Shown piece after piece: positions 1-60,797 of a DNA stretch of 64,000 nt. The notes below the pieces were generated by a model. The model worked only from the letters and a program-made list of their open reading frames with translations. It was not told the origin of the DNA and did no database searches. A program made the position numbers and the translations under genes. Source of the DNA: Lineus longissimus (Eukaryota; Nemertea; Pilidiophora; Heteronemertea; Lineidae); assembly GCF_910592395.1 (NCBI RefSeq), contig NC_088314.1, positions 1,860,001 to 1,924,000 of the forward strand, written 5' to 3'. How positions within the stretch are numbered: position 1 is the stretch's first letter; each line of letters begins with the position of its first letter.

Positions 1-752
1 TCTTATCAGCCTCGTTCTGAACCAGAGGTCAGTTTCAACCTGGTTTCCCTTGTTTTCGGTGGCTGTACATTGTCCTGTACGAAATGTATATGGTTCCACA
101 TAAGTTATCCTGGGTAGCAGGTTGGCTGTGGAGTCTTCAATGGAAGGGACTGTCTGCAAATTTGTTCCCTACAATATTTCACCTCTATGCTGGCAAGCTC
201 TGCCTTTCAAAAGTATGAAATTTGCGAATAAGTAACCTCTATTGGATGTATAACTGAATAAAATACCAAACCTGGTCGTAAATTGGGTACGATTGCATTA
301 ATTTGAAGTGCATACCTCACAATGTTTCTGACCAGGTCCCCCGAATTTAGTCAAAATGTACTATGCAACAATGTATACACATAGTCTTCCGATGGATCAC
401 TTATTAATGGGCGCAGAGGCATAGGCCTAGCTATAGTGAGTTAGGCCTAATTGGTTAAACAAAGACCTCCTGTTGTTAGAGTAAAGAGGATAAAAACTAG
501 ATCCCTGGGCTGTGATGAAACTGTACCATCACGCGAATAGGATGTAGACCTAGCCGCCTATGTCATGATGTTAGCAAAACCACCGTCACCGAGGCCTGTT
601 ACAATAATTCAATATATATACATGTGAAATAGGTCTTTTGTACAGGCACCGGACCCCTCAACTGCCTGAATTACGTTGTCGACATAGTGTTTTTGGCTGC
701 TGTATTGTACAGTTAAAGACAATTGCTATTTCGATTCCAGGTGCCAAACAGA
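1..752. other. upstream / 5' UTR region of the BTB-zinc finger gene
   Basis: No coding exon is visible. A pyrimidine-rich acceptor ends at 740, 12 bases before the ATG at 753, so at least one 5' UTR intron is likely and the first exon lies further upstream or outside the window. The stretch has short tracts of the taggcct type that recur through the whole window. Confidence 0.5.
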
Positions 753-3700
753 ATGGATGCCATTAATGATCCCTATGTCGACCATGCCGTTGCAGCAATG
801 ATGAATGTGTCGGATGTCCAACTTGGTGAAACAATCCGTGAGAGACTGAAGATCCAACGTGATACTGGGCGATTTTGTGATGTCGTTTTCCACGTTCATA
901 GCATCGAATTTCTTGCGCATCGCTGCATCCTCGCAGCCTGCAGCCCTTACTTTGATTCGGTATTGGATCTCAATCGCTATGGCAAGGAGCACCTAACAAT
1001 CTCTGCTGACTGGAAAATCTTCTCTGAACTGATAGATTTTATTTACACTGGGAAAATTTATATCCATGAGGGAAACGTTGCCGAACTATTGCGCTTATCT
1101 GGTTATTTCCTCATGTCTGGTTTAAAAGATTACTGCGGTGAATTTCTCGAGCGCTCAATGAGCGTCAAAAACTGCCTTGGAATTAAAGCATTGTCTGAGA
1201 AGTGTGGTCTGTTGAATCTTGCCATAAACTCAACAGGATTCATCCAAGAGCACATCAATGAAATAACTGGGGAATTGGAACTTTTCGAACTTAGCAAAGC
1301 TAAATTAGAGGCGTTCTTGAACAATAAGGCATTTAATATTTCAAATGAGTTAAAATTAGTCATGATTTCGCGTTGGGTTCTGCATAAGTTGTCCGATAGA
1401 GAAGAGGAGTTTAAGAAGTTGATATCTTTGGTACAGTTGCCACAAGTCGATCATTTGAGAGTCATCGAGCTCATCCAGATTGAGAATCTTTATCATGCCA
1501 GTGAACATTGTCTCTATCACATATTACATGAGCTTTACTCCTTTGGCGTGCAATTAGGACTGTTAGAGGTCACATATTCAGATCTATGTCGCAAGGTCGT
1601 GGAACAGCCAAGGATTGAGGGGAATGTGTTGGATTTGGCGGTCAATGCTGCTCTTGGTGATATGACACCAGCAATGCAGGAGTATACCACTCGGGATTTG
1701 AGAATGAAAAAGGATATGGCCCCAGGGACAGAGGGACTAGGTGATCACTCTTTGTCAAGAGGTGACAGCACCTGTCTGTTGCAGGCCAGCCCCACAATCA
1801 AAGACCAGAGTGGTTTTATTGAGGTGGTAATGCCCGCTCAAGGTGAAGGTAGCAATGTTGAACCAAAGATCGTTGACCATCTTTCGTACACCAAAGTTGA
1901 AGACATGGAGATTGTCAAGGAGCACGTCTTTGAAGAAACAAATGCTGTTGGGCAAGTGCATTTCAAACCAAGATTTCAAGGCAATAGGGAAGAAAACCCA
2001 AACAGTGCTACGACTAGTAAAAGCTTAGGGGCTGTGAAAACTGAAAGTTTGGCCATGCCTGGGAAAGATATCCAGGTACCTGTTGTTGCCAAAAGAGAGG
2101 CATTGGATGAAGATAAGATATTGGAGGCTCAAGCTGCTGCTGCTGCAGAAGCAGTCCCCTCTGCTAGTGAGCTGTATGAAGGTGAAACTGATGAAGATTT
2201 TGCAGATGCTGACTATGTTGCCGATGACAACAATGATAACAATGAAGAAAGTAAAGGTATTGAAGAAGCGAAACCCAAGGTCAAGGCTGAACCGAAAGAC
2301 ACTCTTCCTGAGCAGAATCGTAGAAAACGAAAGGGACGACCAAGGAAGACTGAGAAAGTGAAGGAGCGGATGGAAGGAGACACCACTGGGAGCGAGGGAG
2401 ATGAGGATGAGGAGTGGAAAGTGGAAACAACCAAATCAAGGCCATTTTCTAAGGCAAGGAAGAGGACAGTCAGGGCAAGACATTCAACCACGAGTACCCA
2501 AGCGGACAAAAAGAAAAAGTTGGTCATGAAGCTATCCGTCAAACGGAAAAAAGGTGCTAAGAAACCAGTCCCTCCTAAAAAGACCCGAATCAAGGTGAAG
2601 GCGGATACTTTCAAGTGTGAAGAATGTAATTTCACTGCTAGGAGTCTGCATCGTGTAGAAGTCCATTCACTTGCTGCCCACAAACAGAATGTGGTACAGG
2701 CTTGTGGTAAGTGTGACTTCAAGACCAACTGGAACAAGGAGTACTTCCAGCATATGAGAGGACACTTTACTGGCCCACCCTTCAGCTGCGATGAGGAGGG
2801 TTGCAAATATGTCTCGGACAAGTTCCAGCTGTTGTTGCATCATCGGAGACGACATTCTGACGACCGCCCCTTTGAATGTGAGACCTGCCAGATGAAGTTC
2901 AGGACGAAGAATAATCTGACGTCCCACGTCCGCTGTCACTCAGGTAATCATCTTATTCAGAATATATCAGGACTACAATGTGTATAATATAAAATAGACT
3001 TTGACATGTCTGATGATGACCTGTGTGGGGGGGGGGGGCATGATGTCATCGTTGATATTGGTAAAAATAACATAAAATCAGGGATAAGGGCTGGAAATAT
3101 GAGACTGAGAAGGAACTCTCGGAGGAGGTAAGAATTCAGGTGCCACAAATTTGATTTCTCATTGATATTTTCAGGTGAAAAACCTTTTGAATGTCCTGAT
3201 TGTCAGAGATGTTTTGCCACAAAGAGCACGTTGAACCAGCACAGCGTAACCCACAGCAATCATAGGCCGTACCTGTGTGACACATGTGGCTTCTCGACCA
3301 AATATCAGTCCCATCTCATCGCACACAAACGTATCCACACGGGTAAGTCTTTATATAAAAGTAGAGCGAAGCAGCAGCTGCAAGTGAAAGTTATATCTAA
3401 TGTTTTAAGATAAAATGGTGTCAGTTAGACCCCAGGTATTGTCCTGCCCATGCCTTGATCAAACACACACGGAAAGTTTCATTGCAACGTGGGAAAAAAC
3501 CAAAGGCAAAACCCTGTGTTGTTTTATGATTACAGTATGTAGTGGAGTGTTATCATTTTATTCTCGGGAAGTTGTTCTGTAAGAATTACTCCTCATTCTT
3601 CCTCGACATTGTCTAATTTCAGGGGATGTGTACCGTTGTGTTCATGCAGGCTGCACATACTTTACACCAAAGAGGAGTCAACTGAATGCCCATATGCGCA

Positions 3701-4320
3701 TTCACATGTCCATCAGGAGTCACATCTGTAGTCAGTGCGGTCGTGGGTTTGTCGAACGAAGCCATCTGGTGAGACACGAGAAACTTCACAGCAATGAAAA
3801 AGGATTCAAATGCAGCGATTGCGACTATGCAAGTTACCGCCGTGACAAGTTGAAACTACACGTTGAGAAGCATCATTCGCCAGGTTCCAATTCAAACACT
3901 TACAAACCACGTAAGCAACGGACTCAAAAGGTGCCAGGCCCCCAAAGTGTGTTTCATCACAATATAATGCCAGGGAACTATGGGTTTCAAGGCGGCCCGT
4001 ATCCTGGGATGCCCAGTGGGCAGCAGGTTGACACTAAACCTATTGTTGATGAGCAGATGTATGCAAGTTCACAGCTCGAGCCAATGAACGTTCGGGAACA
4101 GTTCCCAATGTATCACAGGGCACCAACACCACCTCCTGGCAACCAAGGATCTCCGACTGGTTTGTCGCCAAATTCTAGTGGTGCGCCAACAACCTTGACA
4201 AATGTTCGTCAACCAAGGGTGGCTGGTTACATTGTGCAGCCTATGTCTGAACAAAACCAAGGTGTTTACACCCCACAGGGGGATATCGGAGGTCTAGGTG
4301 CTTTTATGGCGTTGTTTTAG
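753..4320 (+). CDS. BTB/POZ - AT-hook - C2H2 zinc finger protein (ZBTB type)
   Basis: Likely a nuclear DNA-binding transcription factor. Three coding exons, 753-2943, 3175-3342 and 3623-4320, join in frame (both introns phase 1) to give 1018 residues. A BTB domain lies at about residues 30-145 (FCDVVFHV, then FLAHRCILAACSPYF). A helical BACK-like part follows to about 250, then an acidic, low-complexity linker. An AT-hook core, KRKGRPRK, is near 525, followed by Lys-rich tracts. Nine C2H2 fingers follow: four in exon 1 from about residue 619, two in exon 2 and three in exon 3. The tail is rich in Pro, Gly and Gln. I chose the ATG at 753 because it follows a 3' splice site at 740; the open frame runs further upstream only through presumed intron. 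BTB plus AT-hook plus fingers recalls ZBTB24 and PATZ1, but finger number and length differ, so no symbol is given. Confidence 0.88.
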
Positions 4321-5994: not shown

Positions 5995-6068
5995 AGTTCC
6001 CACTAGGATTCGAACCCAGGTCCCATATCATCAAAGTGATAAGTGTGTTACCATTACACCATAGGAAC
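5995..6068 (-). tRNA. tRNA-like sequence with an irregular anticodon arm
   Basis: Read on the minus strand it has a 7-bp acceptor stem (GTTCCTA with TGGGAAC, one G-T pair), a 4-bp D stem (GTGT/ACAC) with loop AATGGTA, and a 5-bp T arm carrying the loop TTCGAAT (internal box B). A TTTT run follows within a few bases. The central arm is wrong. The best pairing, TATCA with TGATA, leaves a 6-base loop CTTTGA, and the stretch between the D and T arms is about two bases too long. The loop recalls tRNA-Gln(TTG), but the anticodon cannot be assigned safely. It may be a tRNA pseudogene or the head of a tRNA-derived SINE. Confidence 0.5.
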
Positions 6069-7703: not shown

Positions 7704-7774
7704 GCATTGTTGGTTCAGTGGTAGAATTCTCGCCTGCCACGCGGGAGGCCCGGGTTCGATTCCCGGACAATGCA
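7704..7774 (+). tRNA. tRNA-Gly (anticodon GCC)
   Basis: A 71-base complete tRNA. It has acceptor stem GCATTGT/ACAATGC with discriminator A, box A TGGTTCAGTGG, anticodon loop TGCCACG with GCC, a CCCGG/CCGGG T arm and loop TTCGATT (box B). A TTTT stop signal for RNA polymerase III starts at 7781. Compared with the usual animal tRNA-Gly-GCC as I recall it, the last acceptor pair is changed on both sides (T-A instead of G-C), which keeps the stem and argues for a working gene. Confidence 0.97.
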
Positions 7775-7784
7775 CTTACCTTTT

Positions 7785-9329: not shown

Positions 9330-11800
9330 ATGATGCAGCGTGGTCTTGCCAAGTTTCTTCAATTTGGTAGGAAAGTCAACAATTTCCCAAGAAGTCATGT
9401 CAAATTCTTCAGTCCACTCTACCTCAGTCATGCATATGGAAAACTTACAAGAACTTTCTCAACTTCAACAACAATTTTCCAGGAGGAGAATCGTTGGTTG
9501 AATGTTGATGCCACTGTGGATGAAAGGCGTAACATCCAATCAAAATACTTTAAAGAAACAGACACTGGTGGGTTGTCTGCTATGGAATATCTGAATAGTC
9601 TAGATGAAGACGACGCTAAGAGGTTAAAGGTCATTAAGTTGGAGTATGAGGTTGCTTTGGCTTCTGGTGATTTCGTCCCCGAGGTGATGACGGATGAGGA
9701 CTGGCTACAGGCTTGGGATTGTAATGGTAGGACACAGAGGAGGAAGCTTTATAGGTTAGTACAGTAGAACCTCCCATTGCGGACACCTCTGCCAGGCGGA
9801 CATGTCCACATTACAGACATGTTCGTTCAGTCCCGATTTTTTTCTAAGTCATTTGCTTTAACCAAAACCTCTGTAGGGCGGACACCTCTCTACTCTGAAT
9901 TGCGGACACGGCCATGGTGACTTTTTGGTCCAATATAGTTGAGTTGTGCTTGTGCTCTAAATACAAAGAATAAAGCTTGATGTGTGGTAGCCCAATCAAA
10001 TGCTTCTATACAACTATAAGGATGTACGCTGTCTATGTAGTATGTAGCGTGTGAACACAACCTGTATATATCAATGTTGGCAAATTAATATTGCCTCCAC
10101 TAGAAATGTCATAACTTAAGGTATTACAATAAAGTAATTTCAAGTTCGCATATAAATGGTATCATAATATTTGAAGTAGTTAATATTTACAATTAAATGG
10201 AATATGTAAATTAAAATATGTAGGCTTCACGACCCCGTGTTCATACACATGAATATCCTTTTTGGACAATAATGGCATAACCTCTCATTTAAGGACACCT
10301 CTACATTACGGACACCAATGCCCAGTCCCATGGGTGTCCGCAATAGAGAGGTTGTACTGTACTTAGAACTGGAATATCGTCATACCAGTGTTGCACCCTA
10401 TTGGGTTTTTGTCTGAGGTATGGAGTCCACTCTTGGCTTCTGTCCACATGTGTGGGATCTTTAACTTGCCCTGGCATGGCCACTCGAGCACAAGGAACCG
10501 CAGCTTTTAGCCCTTCCCACAGACCCTCATTGACTTATCTCATATTGAGCCTCGAACTGTTTGTGAAGAACCAGTAATTTTATTACGTCTCATCATTGGT
10601 TATTGATATCAATTGACGGTACAACAAATTGACAGATGCTCTAAAGTTAAAACTACAAAAGAATTGTGTTGTTTTTCAGATATCTTGGAAAGTGTGAAAA
10701 GATTGAACAGAAAAATAAACGATTGAAAGAGGAGCGGAGAATAAAGGAAGAGACACGGGTGAAAGAACAGCGAGTGGAGAGTGATGGTGGGTTCGTTTAT
10801 GCTGGTTCTCCAAAGAACACATTGATATTACGAATAGCAGACAAACAAATGAACCAGCATCATTCAAAAAGATGTTATGAAGCCCTTCAGTTTGGTGAAA
10901 AGATTATCTTTGATATGAGCTATGATGACTTGATGCGTCCATTTGACATAACAAACACTGTTGATCAGGTTTTAGAAGCGCATGGTGTAAACAAACTCTA
11001 CCGAGACCCTTTCTATGTCTATTTCTGTAACGCTAAACCAGACGGCAGGTTTGTTGAACGATTACGCAAAAGTACTCAAGGTGACTTCACGTATTACCCC
11101 TTTACTGTGACTGAGAAGAGTTACCTGGATTTATTCCCAAAAGAGAACTTGGTTTACCTGACGCCGAATGCTAAGGACTATTTAAGAGACTACGATGCAA
11201 ACAAAACCTATATCATCGGAGGACTAGTTGATAAGGTGGTGACGAAGCCAGTCACAATGGCAAAGGCAAAGAGGGAGGAACTCACAATGGCCAAGTTACC
11301 CATTGACCTTCATATGAGGTGAGTGACTTTGGGTTGGTGATGATAACAAGAGTTCTGCATTGTCCTCATCAAACTTATTGAATTCAGGTTGCGAGGATTT
11401 GACTTCAGACCCATCGTTGTGTTCCTGTTTGCAAACCACAATAATATCCTCTTGTGTTGCTTATCCCTCTTTGTGGACATAATACTGTACACATGTCCAC
11501 TTCCCAATTGCTTCTGGTTGGAGAAATGGTTGCAAATCGTCGCATTCTTTCATTGAGTATGTTTAACTCTTTCCTTTCCACTGCAGGTTTATTATGGGAA
11601 ACAAGAGCCTCTGTTTGAACCAGATCTTTGGCATAATGTGCGAGCTGAAGAAGACGGGAAACTGGAAAGAAGCATTCAAGTATATCCCCCGACGAAAGGC
11701 CGTCTACATTGATGAGACGGAGGAATTCGAGAGGCGAACGGCCAACCTTCATATGAAGAGGCAAAAGTTGAGGGCTCGTAGAATGGGATATGATATCTGA
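9330..11800 (+). CDS. TRMT10C: tRNA methyltransferase 10C, mitochondrial RNase P subunit 1 (MRPP1)
   Basis: TRMT10C makes m1G9/m1A9 in mitochondrial tRNAs and, with SDR5C1 and PRORP, forms mitochondrial RNase P. Exons 9330-9754, 10680-11318 and 11587-11800 join in frame (both introns phase 2), giving 425 residues; the human protein is about 400. The N-terminus is rich in Arg, Lys, Ser and Phe with few acidic residues, as in a mitochondrial targeting peptide. A charged helical part at about residues 140-175 is followed by the SPOUT methyltransferase domain, with YIIGGLVDK near residue 320 as the SAM-binding loop containing the expected catalytic Asp. The mitochondrial leader and length favour 10C over the cytosolic TRMT10A/B. 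The other RNase P partners are not in the window. Intron 1 carries a small pogo-like transposon seven bases inside the 5' splice site. Confidence 0.9.
9762..10359. mobile_element. non-autonomous pogo/Tigger-like DNA transposon
   Basis: Terminal inverted repeats start CAGTAGAACCTC at 9762 and end at 10359 (GAGGTTGTACTG), about 27 bp with a few mismatches, and are flanked by TA on both sides (target duplication). Subterminal copies of GCGGACACCTC occur near both ends. No transposase frame remains. It lies wholly inside intron 1 of TRMT10C. Confidence 0.75.
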
Positions 11801-18069: not shown

Positions 18070-26989
<8,920 letters not shown>

Positions 26990-54028: not shown

Positions 54029-54118
54029 ATGGACCATCATTCCAAGCTTCCATCATCCTTTCGGACAAAATCAAGTTGTTATACCCCCCACTGGACCTAC
54101 TTCCAACGCATTACATGA
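54029..54118 (+). promoter_or_regulatory. upstream open reading frame overlapping the main start codon
   Basis: ATG at 54029 in the strong context ACCATGG opens a 29-codon frame whose TGA (54116-54118) overlaps the main ATG (54115-54117) as ATGA. If it is in the mRNA, the cytokine candidate could be translated only by reinitiation or leaky scanning. If transcription starts from the TATA-like box at 54006, this ATG may be excluded. Confidence 0.3.
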
Positions 54119-56729
54119 TGAAGATACCACGCACTTCAATAGGTGAGTTTATTAGATATATTTTGCCCAGCTTTTAGTGACGACGTCAAGCCCATTATGC
54201 TTCAATTGATCTTGACTCTGATTACTCCGACAGACGTGACAATAAAACAAAACATGTAGCATCCAGTATACTTTTCCCGTCCAGCCTGCTGACCATGCCA
54301 TTTTCTTAATCAAATCATTAAAGGTTTTTCGCCCACTCCCAACTCTCGAAATGTCAAATGAAGACCTTCGAGTTTAACCGCCTATGACACGTCAACCGAA
54401 AAAATTAAAAGAAGCACTTTTAGATATAAATTAGATATCATCGTTGCATAAACCCCACACAAATGGATGATTTTGCCATTCGATATGTCGAAGTTGTACA
54501 CTCACTTTTATGCTCAAATTCTCTTGTTTTCAGTCATTTCGCTCATGTGTTTGGCCCAAGTAGTTTTTATCCCTTCGACGAACGGCACCCGATTCATGGA
54601 TCCACTGGAGACGGCGGCGTTCTGTAGCCCTCCATCAGGGAGACTGGATCCGGACTGGGACACTTCCCCACTTGCGAACTTCGTCTGTGACCTCGTGCAG
54701 CTGAACCATGACCTCACGTCACTCTATCAAAAATATGTAAGTACATGTACTCCTCAAAATTGTTTTTTTTTATTGATTTTTTTGATCTTCTTGGCAAAGT
54801 GGGTAAGTTAAAGTTCGAACCTAAAATCTTTATTTAACCTGTCGTTCCTCATAAGTCGTGGTGTGTCTCTCGCTTCTGGTCACATGTCTCATAAAAGACA
54901 TTGTCATCAGCCAAAACGAGGAAAATTTCAGCAATGGCAAATGTTACCTGTTATGAAACCGTGAATTTAGCTTCTTAACACCATCGGGACATAAGGCTGT
55001 TCTCAGGCTGGAGGGGGGGTCCATTGTATAAAAAGCGCGGATTGCGGGGAAAAAGCCTTGTAAATGGGAAGCAGACCTCCTCTGCTCCCCCTCCAAAAAA
55101 ACCCACGCACAAACAGCTATCCCCCTGCACCATTGATAGAAATAGTTTTCCAGAAAAACAGGCTTTCTCAAGGTGCTGTAAAGTTACCTTCTGAGAATAG
55201 CTATATCAGATTATCAGATGCGGCTTTCAAAAACCAATATGAGATTTGGGGAATTCCACTCAGTCACACAGTCCCAGTTAACAAAGACAGCAGTAGTGTA
55301 CTCTTTTGTCCTCTTGTAGGTCTGCCTTCCCAGAAATGCGGCGTTTTTCCGAACTAACAAGTCTTTCAAAAATCTTTCAAATTGATGCGTCTTTTGAGTG
55401 TGTATGACACAGATTTCTGGCTTCCCCCTCCTTAAAAATAACACTTCCTGCGAAGGTTCCCAAAAGTGTGTGTGTATACACAAGAGGAAATGAAGACCTC
55501 CTGGTAAAGAATAACTCTGCAGGATTATCTCCTTCATCATCCACCTTTGTTTTTACAGGGACCGTACACTGAAAATCCTCACCGCAACCTGACTTGGCCA
55601 GAGCTGCCATTGGATAGCAAACTAGCGGTGGTGGTAAGTTACATATTCAATTAGGCAGGTTCTGCAACTCTTACCACAAGGACCAACGAACGGCGAAGTA
55701 CCAAGTATGGAAATGTATTTTATCGACGACGGTCTTTGAAGAGTTCGCCGAGTTTTCGCAAAGCCCCCAAAAACGCCAACGTGAACGCCTATCTCACTGT
55801 TCGATCTCATCATGATAACGATGTCGAAAGATAAGATAGGCGTTCACGTTGGGGATTTGCGAAAACTCTCTTTAAGGGCGATTTACGAGTGTCGCGTACT
55901 AAACGATTTCGCGCAGTACTTCATGACACCTTATGTCTTCTTTACGGTGCTTCGTCGTTCATAAGAGCTGAGGAACCGATCTATTAATTTCATTTAAACC
56001 GTGACTGTGAGTTGACTGTCTGATGATAGGCTGCCTGTCTTCTTGGCGATTGAGACTATCCGCCGTATTGTCCAATCATAATCTGGCTTCACAGGGCTAG
56101 TTACTGCCAATGAACCAATCATAAGCAGTTCTTTGTGAAACGTCCGGTCGCATGGCCGTCCAATCAGCCAATCAGAACATCGTTTTGATGCCATTGTCCA
56201 GTTGGAACCCGTCTTGACACCAAGATCCTCATACGCTTCCTAAAACGCGATATCAGACCTAAGATTTACGCGACAATGCACTTTTCATAATTCCGCTTTG
56301 GACAAACGCTGTGCGCTGCTCTCTAATAATAGAATTTTCATTTCCTTTTATCCACAGAAATCACTTTACAAAGACTTTGCCACTGCCTCGCTTTACCTAA
56401 GCAATGTTGCGGAAGAGGAACTCCTCATTGCAGCCCAGTACGACGATCCCCAAACGTCAATGTCAAGGCCGTTGGCAGAGGTCATAATCTTGTCGAGAAC
56501 GATTCTATCGAAAACCTGCGAGGAACTGGCAAAGGCTGGTGTGGAGGAGGAAATTGGGACAGTAAATTTAGCCGCAGCGATCAATGACAGAGCACGCTTT
56601 TCCCGCGGGAGAGAATTTGGATCGGCTTTCGTGAAACAACTGCGTGCCATCGTTAGGAAATATCTTCGTCGTTTACCGCACATAGGCCTACATCACAGGA
56701 GAGCGAGGTGTGCCCGGTCTCCTCGGTAA
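54115..56729 (+). CDS. candidate secreted four-helix cytokine, CNTF/CLCF1-like (IL-6 family)
   Basis: Four exons, 54115-54142, 54534-54736, 55559-55633 and 56358-56729, give 225 residues. The first intron is phase 1 and the others phase 0, a pattern common in helical cytokine genes. The start is a basic residue pair then a hydrophobic core (SIVISLMCLAQVVFI), a signal peptide. Sequons are at N26 and N87; Cys at 40, 61, 156 and 220. Predicted helices are A about 54-77, B about 97-127, C about 138-162 and D about 186-208. Helix A and its loop (LNHDLTSLYQKYGPYTENPH) have the spacing of CLCF1 and CNTF, and the length equals that of human CLCF1 as I recall it. Before helix D, F183 is followed by basic residues, roughly where the family has its FxxK receptor motif. 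The likely role is an extracellular ligand of a gp130/Domeless-type receptor. An unspliced start at 54467 is possible but less likely. The family call is inference. Confidence 0.6.
55750..55868. repeat. imperfect long hairpin (MITE-like) in cytokine-candidate intron 3
   Basis: Two perfect blocks on each side: 13 bp (GAGTTTTCGCAAA at 55750, inverse at 55856-55868) and 19 bp starting CCAACGTGAACGCC at 55776 (inverse at 55834-55852), around a 39-base loop. Outer flanks also show weaker inverted similarity, so the full element may be larger. Confidence 0.6.
56072..56172. promoter_or_regulatory. cluster of five CCAAT boxes
   Basis: CCAAT occurs at 56072, 56107, 56115, 56160 and 56168, all on the plus strand, three of them as CCAATCA. 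They are inside intron 3, about 190 bases before the exon coding helices B-D. This could be an NF-Y-bound enhancer or internal promoter, or chance. Confidence 0.25.
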
Positions 56730-58691
56730 AATCGACCTTCTTTGCATGCAATGTGCTGATTCAATGAATTTCAATTTGCGAACGACGAATCTAACGTAGA
56801 CTGCCTTGATGCCATCTGTGGATGATAGATAGAAACTACTGAGATAAGAAGTTTGAACTGAAGATTGTCAAGGTTTTTGACTGAAAAGTAGAGTCATTTT
56901 CGATTCTTGATTGCAGTAGACTAGTTAGTAGCTAAGTAGTAATAGTTGGTGGATCAGGAACACTATAGCAGAAGGGAGTTGGCTATATATATGTACTTCA
57001 ATGAGTTTTTACTTCAATGGAATGTTCATCCCACGATTAACTTGATTATGAACTATCTTACCAGGAATCATGCCTATGCGGAGTTGAATTATTCCTCAAC
57101 TCAAACTTCGTTATACAGTGGAACACCGGTAACTCGACCACTCATGGGACACAGGTTGAATGGTGGGGTGGTCGCGTTAGTGAAGTTGAAAATCCGGGGA
57201 CAAAATGAATGATTAAGTTTTCCCGCCAAAATTGGCATGACAGCATTCGTCTTTTCACGGCAATTAGGCCCTTTGGTCGGGTGAGAGAGGTGAATTTGGT
57301 CATTGGGACCGCCCAATCCAGTGGTCTTTGTCTGGGTACCGGTGTAACATCTGTGGTTGTTTCCCATGTGTCAGTGTTTCCAAACAATAGGCAGCTAGAG
57401 AGACCATGACTTTTCAATAGGGGGAAACACAGAAAAACTTGTCAATCTATCTTTTAGCGTTCCCAAACAATGAGGGGAAACACTCAAAAATAGAAACACT
57501 CAAAAACATTACACCGGGGTGGTCATGTTACCGGGGGCCTTGTAATGGCAATTAGAGAGGAAACCATTCGGGACCAGCGATTCTTGGTTGTCATAGCGGA
57601 GTGGTCGCGGACCGGGGTTCCACTGTATACATTCCAAAAACAATCTCTATTTGTCGAAGATTGGGAAAAAATGAACGGAAGGCGTGTCCTATTTTATCGG
57701 TTTTTCGTCAGCCTTGTTTCAACAAAAATATTTTCATATGGAATTTGTATTGTCAGCATTGGCATATTTTTATTCCAGAAACCATGTAATAACTACTATC
57801 AGTGCAATGTTTTGTGTAATTAATTTATTCAAGATGTACATGTATTTTGTGTACCCACACTTCTATTTTAGTTAATGTCGACTAACTGGCGGTGAACGTC
57901 AATCCTAAAAGTCTCCTCCTTCAAGAAGGATGGATAATACTCACCGGTAGATCGGCATGATTTAGTTTAATAAATTTACTTTTTCACAATTTTGACGATT
58001 TGTGTTCTTTTATGAGATATACACGCTATTGTATGTACATGGGCAGGCAAGCAGAAGTGAGGTCGACTGTGCGGTTGGTAAACCTTTGGAGAACTGTTGC
58101 ACTAGAAAGAATCGACTCACTTAAATATGATGCGATCCAACATGATATGAAAGGAATCACACCGTTATCAAAGTCGGTTTTCCCCCTTAGCGTCTATCAA
58201 ATGATTTGTTTCGCATGTCAATACTCTACGTTTGATTGTTGATAACTATAGTGACCGATACCAATTACGGAACGTCAGAAATCTCCCGTGATTTCGCGTG
58301 ACTGAAGTCGCAGTCCACCAAAAATGGTTTTATCCAACAAAATATATACATACATGAATACAACTGTGTTGAAATACAGACTATACATAGATATAAATGT
58401 TTTTTACGTAAATATATACATTCTTTTTTGTAGATTACAATATGTAATACAAGTAACATAATGATTAGCGTCTCATTACCGAAACGGTATTTTAACAAGG
58501 CAATATTCATGTTGATGATGTAACGTTAACGGTTATCCCTGACGGAGTATTACCACCCCTCACAATAACTGGTGTGTACCAGGCAAATGGAGCAATCGTT
58601 GTCCATTCTACGTTAAGCATATCATTACCGATCCTTGCTCAACGGTGTTAATGGGACACCTATTTACATTACATCAGTATCAATAAGTCTG
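56730..58691. other. intergenic region between the two convergent cytokine candidates
   Basis: Holds the 3' UTRs of both genes and a pogo-like transposon (57116-57625). An AATAAA at 57969 is on the plus strand. Open frames here are overlapping by-products of the transposon or AT-rich sequence. Confidence 0.45.
57116..57625. mobile_element. non-autonomous pogo/Tigger-like DNA transposon
   Basis: Terminal inverted repeats CAGTGGAACACCGG at 57116 and CCGGGGTTCCACTG ending 57625 are flanked by TA on both sides. Subterminal copies of the gtggtcgc / gtggtcatgttaccgg motif occur inside, and GGGAAACAC-type short repeats occur in the middle. No transposase frame remains. Confidence 0.75.
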
Positions 58692-60797
58692 TCAACACCA
58701 CGTGTGATGATTGCAGAGTTGCAGACGCGCGAGATTGCCCTGAATCTTCTCCATTATCCAGTCTCCAAGGTTGTTCCGGTCTGTCGCTGGCTGGAGGTGA
58801 CTTGGCTGCATGCATGAGGGGAGGCGGAATCCGATTGGTGCGAACCCGCCTTGCCTTCGCGACTCCCAGCACAGTCTGCTCTGGAGTTTCGTGCTGAGGG
58901 TGTCAAAGGCGTTTTTGGTTGAAATGGGCCAGGTGTTTTTGAATCCGTGCACTGGATGGTCTACCATTAATCCAAATTGCTTCACCATCAGCAAACATAC
59001 ACTAAGATCTTGGATTGTGGACAAGGAGGGTTGCTGAAATATAATAACGGTTTTATTAGTATGTGAATGTGTGCAGTAGTTGTGGTAGTGTCGGCCTCCT
59101 GATCGGAATGGACTAGGTTCGAATCCATTGAAGTCACTTGTTGTTTCCACGTTGGAGAGGTGAACACTTTTCAAGTGTTGAAAATGTGCTAAGAATTCGA
59201 CAAAAGCAGAAGAACATCTTTAGCCTGTTGACAGTCAGTCGAGATAAACATTCATCTTACCTGGCATTGGAACGTTCTAGATGTCTGGTCCACCCAGGTT
59301 TTGATTTGTTCATCCATGGCGAGCAAAGTCTGGAAGGAGATAGAAACTCATTTTAGAACTTCGCCAGTCTCGCTTAGAAGTAAGCGCAACGGATACTCAG
59401 TGCAAGCCTGTACTACACTCCGGACGCATTGAAACGGCCTCATTCTGTCGCCATGCAGTCGAGACACAATTAGGATGACCCAATGGACCGCCCCGGGAGT
59501 CTAACTTGTTCAGGTTACGGCGTGTTTCGGTGATTTCCCCGAACGCGTATAGGTTTCCAATGTCTATTCGGGACACCTTCCGAACACAGGCACATGAAGA
59601 TCTGCAAGCAATAGATCGATCGCTCAATCAATCTATAAACACCATCCCAATTGTAGCACTTTGATTCAGGACGGGTTTTGTTTAAGAAGCCAATCGTTCG
59701 TTGTTATTTAACCGGACAATACGGGTACTTACGCGATTGACATTCCTCCCGGCGCAACTGTTGAGGTGAGGCCATCCATGAGACGACGGGGACTGCGAGA
59801 GCTGAAATCGTGTAGGATACATGATTACATCAAATTGAAATTGGTACGGAAAATCAGTGTGACCACGGTTATCAACACGACAGTCTGATCACATCCTAGT
59901 TCGTATCATAAAAATCTAAATATGGTGAGAACTGGTCTTCAGGAGTCAATCAGATCCAGAAGTGCGTTTGATATTTCTAATATTTTATTTTTCAGTTTTG
60001 AGTGAATCATCAGTTGTCGTCAGCAGGCCTTTGGCCTCTCGCGGTTACATTGTCTTCGGTGGTGAAGACATTGCACTTCAGAAACACAGCGAAACAGGTG
60101 TAACAGCTTGAAATTTCCAACAGGACAGACTGTCCTGCATGGGCGACAAAGAATGTTGTGCGCTGTTAATCTTTGCGGTATTGAAGATCAGTGGTGTCTC
60201 TACCATACCATAATTCGTCAGGGGGACACCTTTTCTAGGGGGTGTCTTCATCTACAGCTACAGCGGTTAATATATTAGTATCTATCAGGCCGATCCCTGT
60301 GAAAAGCCATATTTTAATAGAACCAATACTGACAAATCACAAGAATGGTGTCAAACGCTTACCTCTCCCCTTATCACCACTGTTAGTGCGTTGAGTTCGT
60401 TGAACGAGTAACAGTCGGCAACGACATTAACGCCAGGGCAGGGTCGATGTACCCACAGGTGAGGATGGGGACTGGAATTGACGCCGATCAGGCTGGCCAT
60501 GGCCAGTCCTACCACAAGAAGTACCACGTTTGCTGAAAAAGAAGAGAAGTGTCCATGCTGTAAAACTGTTATTATTTGCCAGATAACTCCATGTGGTCTC
60601 TCCAAGCGTTGAAGCAAAATTTCTTAGCGCGGCGACGCCTACTGAGGTGATCAGCCTGAGATCTCCAACAACACAGTAAAATATTTCAAAACATTTTACG
60701 ATAGCGAATTAAGAGTCAGCAGAAAAACAGATAATAATTGCTAAGTGATAAACTGGTGTCATGTCAAAATGTTCAACCACTCACCTGCAAAAGTCAT
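58692..60797 (-). CDS. candidate secreted Cys-rich four-helix cytokine-like protein
   Basis: Five minus-strand exons, 60797-60785, 60532-60363, 59801-59733, 59329-59261 and 59033-58692, give 220 residues. The first intron is phase 1 and the next three are phase 0, as in the plus-strand neighbour. Residues 1-22 are a textbook signal peptide (ANVVLLVVGLAMASLIG core). The mature part has nine Cys (36, 45, 77, 106, 120, 162, 181, 214 and 220) and sequons at N23 and N83, the second spanning an exon junction. Predicted amphipathic helices are A about 44-62, B about 85-106, C about 110-131, an extra short helix about 148-162, and D about 195-214. Exon 3 carries GWPHL, matching TWPEL in the loop exon of the neighbour. 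I do not recognise a family. The splice sites all fit consensus (GTGAGT, GTAAGC, GTAAGT, GTAAGA), which supports a real gene; the cytokine reading is inference. Confidence 0.55.
59072..59135 (+). repeat. tRNA-like repeat with intact box B
   Basis: TTGTGGTAGTGTCGGCC (box A form), an anticodon-like arm and a canonical box B GGTTCGAATCC at 59116-59126. It lies in intron 4 of the minus-strand cytokine candidate, opposite strand. No good acceptor stem, so probably a SINE head. Confidence 0.45.

Follow-up and report, generated by a model that had tools for sequence, protein, structure and literature searches.

The locus at positions 54115 to 56729 of the window (the whole stretch of DNA analysed here, 64,000 nucleotides) raises the question whether a helical cytokine of the CNTF/CLCF1 kind is encoded in it, as a sequence-only reading had proposed. 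As far as the available parts of the sources go, IL-6-family ligands are reported from vertebrates only (PMC8226699), and a BLAST-based study (thresholds E ≤ 1e-5 and 30% identity) states the same, with insect Upd noted (PMC13203501). The available part of the latter traces IL6R to molluscs and has IL6R sequences from echinoderms and hemichordates in its tree, contrary to the accessible text of another source, according to which the purple sea urchin shows no apparent signalling through cytokine receptors (PMC3296744); a gp130-like receptor is described for the sea squirt in the part available of PMC1963337. Among the literature matches listed, which mostly do not include preprints and subscription journals, none described a ligand of the CNTF/LIF type from a non-vertebrate. 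Beyond insects, the class as such already has a known non-vertebrate member: amphioxus GHl is presented, in the available part of its source (PMC9010856), as a type I helical cytokine.

The sequence bears out the exon layout that had been read from the DNA, that is, a 28-base first exon ending in phase 1, followed by a hydrophobic leader and phase-0 exons (Table 1). The four exons (phases 1-0-0) add up to 678 nt, encoding 225 amino acids plus TAA, and are joined across the donors AG/gtgagt, AT/gtaagt and TG/gtaagt and the pyrimidine-rich acceptors ttttcag, tttacag and tccacag. The hexamer GTRAGT accounts for 43 of the 3,975 GT dinucleotides on the plus strand of the window and is used by all three introns. 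The leader clears the hydropathy threshold of the architecture scans described below (11-residue mean ≥ 1.8), and a product of 225 residues with a leader fits the norm for class I cytokines, which are secreted proteins of about 150-230 residues. Cysteines are found at residues 15, 40, 61, 156 and 220. Both sequons that had been claimed, N26 and N87, are present, but N26 may be unused because it lies at the guessed leader cleavage site. Several alternatives likewise leave the chain open: there are two start codons (54115 and 54118), a further candidate first exon beginning at about 53556 and, for exon 2, a second donor after 54802 that would add 22 residues. No in-frame stop occurs in the 90 nt upstream of the candidate ATG. 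Codon usage amounted to -0.167 bits per codon for exon 2, 0.036 for exon 3, -0.018 for exon 4 and -0.058 for all. Intron 3 contains an inverted repeat, recognised by eye, with 19-base arms at 55776-55794 and 55834-55852 (plus strand) and looser pairing outside them.

Table 1. Positions of the candidate gene, of its possible polyadenylation signal and of the second gene in the window.
Feature	Positions	Strand	Description
Candidate, coding exon 1	54115..54142	+	28 nt; MMKIPRTSI plus one base; phase 1 end
Candidate, coding exon 2	54534..54736	+	203 nt; hydrophobic leader, N-terminal stretch, predicted helix A to Y77; phase-0 junction
Candidate, coding exon 3	55559..55633	+	75 nt; bulk of predicted A-B loop, GPYTENPHRNLTWPELPLDSKLAVV
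Candidate, coding exon 4	56358..56729	+	372 nt including TAA; predicted helices B, C and D, then basic tail
AATAAA, possible polyadenylation signal	57969..57974	+	about 1.2 kb 3' of the stop
Second gene, coding exon 1	60785..60797	-	13 nt; phase 1 end
Second gene, exon 2	60363..60532	-	170 nt; leader and first possible helix
Second gene, exon 3	59733..59801	-	69 nt
Second gene, exon 4	59261..59329	-	69 nt
Second gene, exon 5	58692..59033	-	342 nt including TGA

A strict scan for chains of this architecture returned a single terminal exon on the plus strand, that of the candidate (4 models), nothing on the minus strand and nothing in 40 dinucleotide-shuffled strands. A looser scan of the whole window returned two loci, the candidate (6 models) and one on the minus strand (10 models), against one locus in 60 shuffled strands; as the scan criteria were chosen after the model had been seen, these contrasts with shuffled strands are indications and not strict P values. 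With the first intron set to phase 0 or 2, the looser scan found no locus in the real window. The candidate gene model is well above chance, and we regard it as almost certain that the candidate is a real gene.

In class I cytokine genes the first intron is typically in phase 1 and the later introns are in phase 0, one of them at the end of helix A. The candidate has the same arrangement, with phases 1-0-0 and a junction after Y77 at the predicted end of helix A. This exon 2/3 junction was taken to be the intron site of CNTF (after residue 38, Y38) and of LIF (after precursor residue 66), and the junction points of CLCF1 and OSM were placed by analogy. The CNTF and LIF intron positions were not found in the literature, including the available parts of PMC11944073, PMC7016601 and PMC5385356. 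For vertebrate IL6, PMC7284502 gives five coding exons, the signal peptide and helix A both being encoded by exon 2. Two LIF registers were run; the one kept follows the LIF exon lengths assumed here, and moving the LIF anchor to the next residue abolished the match (P 0.93). The residues before the Y77 junction were compared, ungapped, with those before the corresponding point in human cytokines, the background for a length of 14 being 39,663 14-mers from stop-to-stop open reading frames of the window (mostly noncoding); both the helix and the families were picked with the finding in mind. At this length, P was 3e-5 for CNTF, 5e-5 for LIF, 2e-4 for CLCF1 and 7e-4 for OSM, with the junction register ranking first of 212 in each case, and since the cytokines are mutually related these P values are not independent. 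GH also gave rank 1 of 212, with a P of 4e-3. No match was obtained with IL-6 (P 0.99), G-CSF (0.74) or EPO (0.72). At lengths of 10, 18, 20 and 24 the junction register still ranked first for CNTF; it ranked second for LIF and OSM at length 10 and for CLCF1 at 18, 20 and 24. At a length of 20, the summed score of CNTF, LIF and CLCF1 was 52, compared with a background maximum of 36 (34,977 20-mers), and among 12,605 helix-prone 20-mers P was 2.4e-4 for CNTF, 8e-5 for LIF and 4.6e-3 for CLCF1; CT-1, whose letters are unverified, matched weakly (score -2). As a control, CNTF and LIF scored just -1 against each other in the same register. By sequence, the putative helix A end of the candidate is similar to those of CNTF, LIF, CLCF1 and OSM and not to those of IL-6, G-CSF and EPO. 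The motif L-x-H-x-L-x-S-L-x3-Y, said to line up with CLCF1, is literally present in both proteins. The loop likeness claimed along with it (G-P-x2-E-x-P) extends to the G-P block, but the candidate reads GPYTENP and CLCF1 GPPFNEP, with E and N swapped. The stretch from Y to G is also longer by four residues in CLCF1; P was 0.013 for the 10-residue block and 0.053 for the 14-residue block.

Exons 2 and 4 were folded separately. The exon 2 model (mean pLDDT 57) contains a helix at residues 55-76 and, further up, two short strands plus another short helix, and the exon 4 model (mean pLDDT 48) contains helices at 105-129, 133-162, 171-181 and 186-206, although Pro140 suggests that helix C starts later than modelled. 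Combined, they give the order helix A, a 28-residue loop, helix B, a short loop, helix C, a long loop that includes a short helix, and helix D. This predicted order is that of long-chain class I cytokines and, coming from low-confidence models, fits such a fold without proving it. The four-helix amphipathic pattern that had been claimed was recovered for helices A and D (P 0.02 each) but not at a significant level for B (0.37) and C (0.14). A Foldseek search with the exon 4 model, one of the checks proposed for the fold, returned 155 matches at E ≤ 10, of which none reached E ≤ 0.001, the best having E 1.0; given the pLDDT of 48 for this model, the outcome, which brought no significant fold match, is not meaningful.

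The FxxK motif at the start of helix D is common to CNTF, LIF and CLCF1 (verified sequences), and F183 with its basic neighbours had been placed near this site III position. F183 is present, but no F..K occurs anywhere in the candidate protein, and the place of the lysine is taken by G186, which R185 and R187 flank. The F183 register ranks 24 (CNTF), 25 (LIF) and 40 (CLCF1) of 202, which is no helix-D match; the best helix-D register with LIF is 184, one off, with a score of 6. Because FxxK is absent, with G186 in place of the lysine, a LIFR-type site III in the style of CNTF and LIF is unsupported.

Sequence searches with the candidate found no family in Pfam at E ≤ 10, hence none of CNTF, LIF_OSM, PRF or Hormone_1; as a control, human CLCF1 matched PRF at 2.4e-8 and CNTF at 2.8e-5. 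No relative was found in the PDB, where the best match (E 0.35) is unrelated. This missing PDB relative is not counted against the candidate, as human CLCF1 and CNTF fail the same test mutually: a phmmer search of the PDB with either one does not recover the other at E ≤ 10. Pairwise alignment was not significant with CLCF1 (z 1.5-1.6) or CNTF (z 0-0.7), compared with z 4.7-6.4 for the control pair of CNTF and CLCF1. The profile search that the sequence-only reading had called for gave a divided answer. Against a CNTF/CLCF1/LIF profile, the candidate scored 18.6 over 150 collinear columns and beat all 100 shuffles and all 40 open reading frames of the window that were compared, but the hhalign probability was just 1.1%, and with OSM added to the profile the score was reached by 4 of 50 shuffles. 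Two-member profiles gave scores of 14-16. In leave-one-out controls CLCF1 scored 37.8, CNTF 36.4 and LIF 23.1. With the four-member profile, G-CSF (26.5) was above noise and EPO (11.1), leptin (12.7) and IL-6 (14.1) were at noise, which indicates that genuine members of class I may be missed by this test and that neither a high nor a low score is decisive. The candidate was at noise against the GH/PRL, IL6/GCSF, EPO and leptin profiles, its scores being reached by 32, 38, 42 and 19 of 50 shuffles, respectively. No paralogue was found in the window by tblastn (other matches at E 1.7 or worse). Among pattern matches to exon 4, 0 of 7 were confirmed in the viral_contigs collection and 2 of 98 in genome_contigs, and 1 of 3 was confirmed for exon 2 in viral_contigs; the loci concerned, L001 (21 query residues) as well as L002 and L003 (Cyanobium contigs, 27 residues), were taken as chance short matches.

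A second gene is located 2 kb from the candidate in convergent orientation. It has five exons with phases 1-0-0-0, and its product of 220 amino acids carries a hydrophobic leader together with nine cysteines and two sequons. The genes of IL-6, G-CSF, GH and EPO are laid out in the same 1-0-0-0 fashion, and their first coding exon is likewise very short. No Pfam family and no PDB relative was found for the product, and no polyadenylation hexamer occurs in 58001-58691. In profile comparisons, its score was reached by 3 of 50 shuffles for IL6/GCSF, 6 of 50 for LIF/CNTF, 10 of 50 for EPO, 35 of 50 for leptin and 39 of 50 for GH/PRL. A prolactin-like identity, seen by eye in CPG..C, NSC and a C-terminal Cys pair, was rejected on this GH/PRL result and on a collinear-block test that was unsupportive as well (P 0.85). 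At the helix-A anchor, the second gene has no significant likeness to the candidate (score -8, P 0.16) and does not match CNTF (-9), LIF (-25) or CLCF1 (-24). None of five pattern matches to its last exon in the viral_contigs collection was confirmed.

Elsewhere in the window, TAGGCCTA occurs 9 times, compared with 0.9 expected from base composition; it is an echinoderm trait and serves as a lead only. Further features are a BTB/BACK open reading frame followed by a C2H2 zinc-finger one at 717-4320 (+; Pfam), a tRNA-Gly(gcc) gene at 7704-7775 (+) and a second tRNA at 5995-6068 (-), the anticodon of which has just two bases in the ARAGORN output. An exon of the tRNA (guanine-1)-methyltransferase family lies at 10651-11319 (+; Pfam) and is presumably TRMT10-like, and an IQCA1/DRC11-like exon or open reading frame lies at 25374-25736 (+; PDB match at E 2.4e-21), a match to be expected of an animal, whether vertebrate or invertebrate.

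The candidate can be compared with several known ligands. Like CNTF (PF01110), it has about 200 residues and a predicted helix A that ends in DLT[SA]Lx3Y, with a phase-0 intron right after it, but it differs by its leader, two more introns, and the lack of a Pfam match, of FxxK and of whole-length similarity. With CLCF1, which is secreted, it shares the helix A motif and the G-P loop block, whereas the distance from Y to G-P is four residues shorter, FxxK is missing and Pfam, which assigns CLCF1 to PRF and CNTF, is silent. As in LIF/OSM (PF01291), the helix A end is in register, and LIF also has a short phase-1 first coding exon; unlike LIF/OSM, the candidate lacks FxxK and, relative to LIF, has an extra intron before the predicted helix B. 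It would be another non-vertebrate class I receptor ligand beside the insect Unpaired ligands if the source is an invertebrate, a parallel of kind. Amphioxus GHl, an invertebrate type I helical cytokine of 208 amino acids with low sequence identity to known ones, is the kind of protein that the candidate may be, but it is described as GH-like in the available part of PMC9010856.

Taken together, the proposed CNTF/CLCF1-like cytokine is supported in part: the gene model, the helix A end and the helix order of the separately folded exons speak for it, but a Pfam match and FxxK were not found, whole-length similarity was at noise or hardly above it, and no fold match was significant. Since two defining features, a Pfam match and FxxK, were looked for and not found, the candidate is not filed as a LIF/CNTF member. 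It is nevertheless highly likely that it is a class I helical cytokine-type ligand of some branch, and the best explanation, which we consider probable, is that 54115-56729 is a real gene encoding a secreted ligand of the class I (four-helix) cytokine type that is most LIF/CNTF-like. A ligand of another branch, GH-like, ancestral or lineage-specific, in which the likeness of helix A to LIF/CNTF reflects chance or shared ancestry, is unlikely. GH matches the anchor too, FxxK is missing, phases 1-0-0 are general to long-chain class I cytokines, and the available part of PMC9010856 provides a GH-like precedent in amphioxus; however, CNTF, LIF, CLCF1 and OSM all beat GH at a length of 14, and the profiles of the other branches stay at noise.

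The helix-A match in register with the junction and the adjoining second gene of the same layout class argue against a secreted helical protein with no relation to class I cytokines, such as a lineage-specific secreted factor, whose layout would have arisen by chance. Such a protein, quite unlikely in our estimate, would agree with a whole-length similarity near noise, with the absence of a Pfam match, with the uncertain models and with the fact that phase-1 introns after signal peptides are common in secreted proteins. It is very improbable that the exon model is wrong or that the locus is not a gene: codon usage is inconclusive, with exon 2 noncoding-like, and alternative starts and a donor exist, but full-consensus donors at three of three introns and the architecture scans speak against it.

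If the candidate is a LIF/CNTF-like ligand, its leader would be cut off near residue 27, and residues ~55-206 of the predicted structure would form an up-up-down-down bundle with long A-B, short B-C and long C-D loops, the phase-0 introns lying at the predicted end of helix A and just before the predicted helix B. The ligand would join receptor chains of class I, such as those related to gp130, LIFR or Domeless, and the assembled receptors would signal through JAK-STAT. It is possible, and suggested here tentatively, that the window holds a non-vertebrate LIF/CNTF-type cytokine gene that faces, in convergent orientation, another gene for a secreted protein, whose five exons follow the canonical 1-0-0-0 layout of class I. 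That CLCF1 and CNTF miss each other in the PDB implies that such ligands escape sequence search, and gene layout combined with the helix-A anchor may be a usable route to finding them. If the animal is an invertebrate, the gene bears on the origin of these signals: should the reading just given hold, LIF/CNTF-type ligands would predate vertebrates, and the products of both genes would be candidate ligands for gp130-like receptors in invertebrates, where such receptors have no known ligand.
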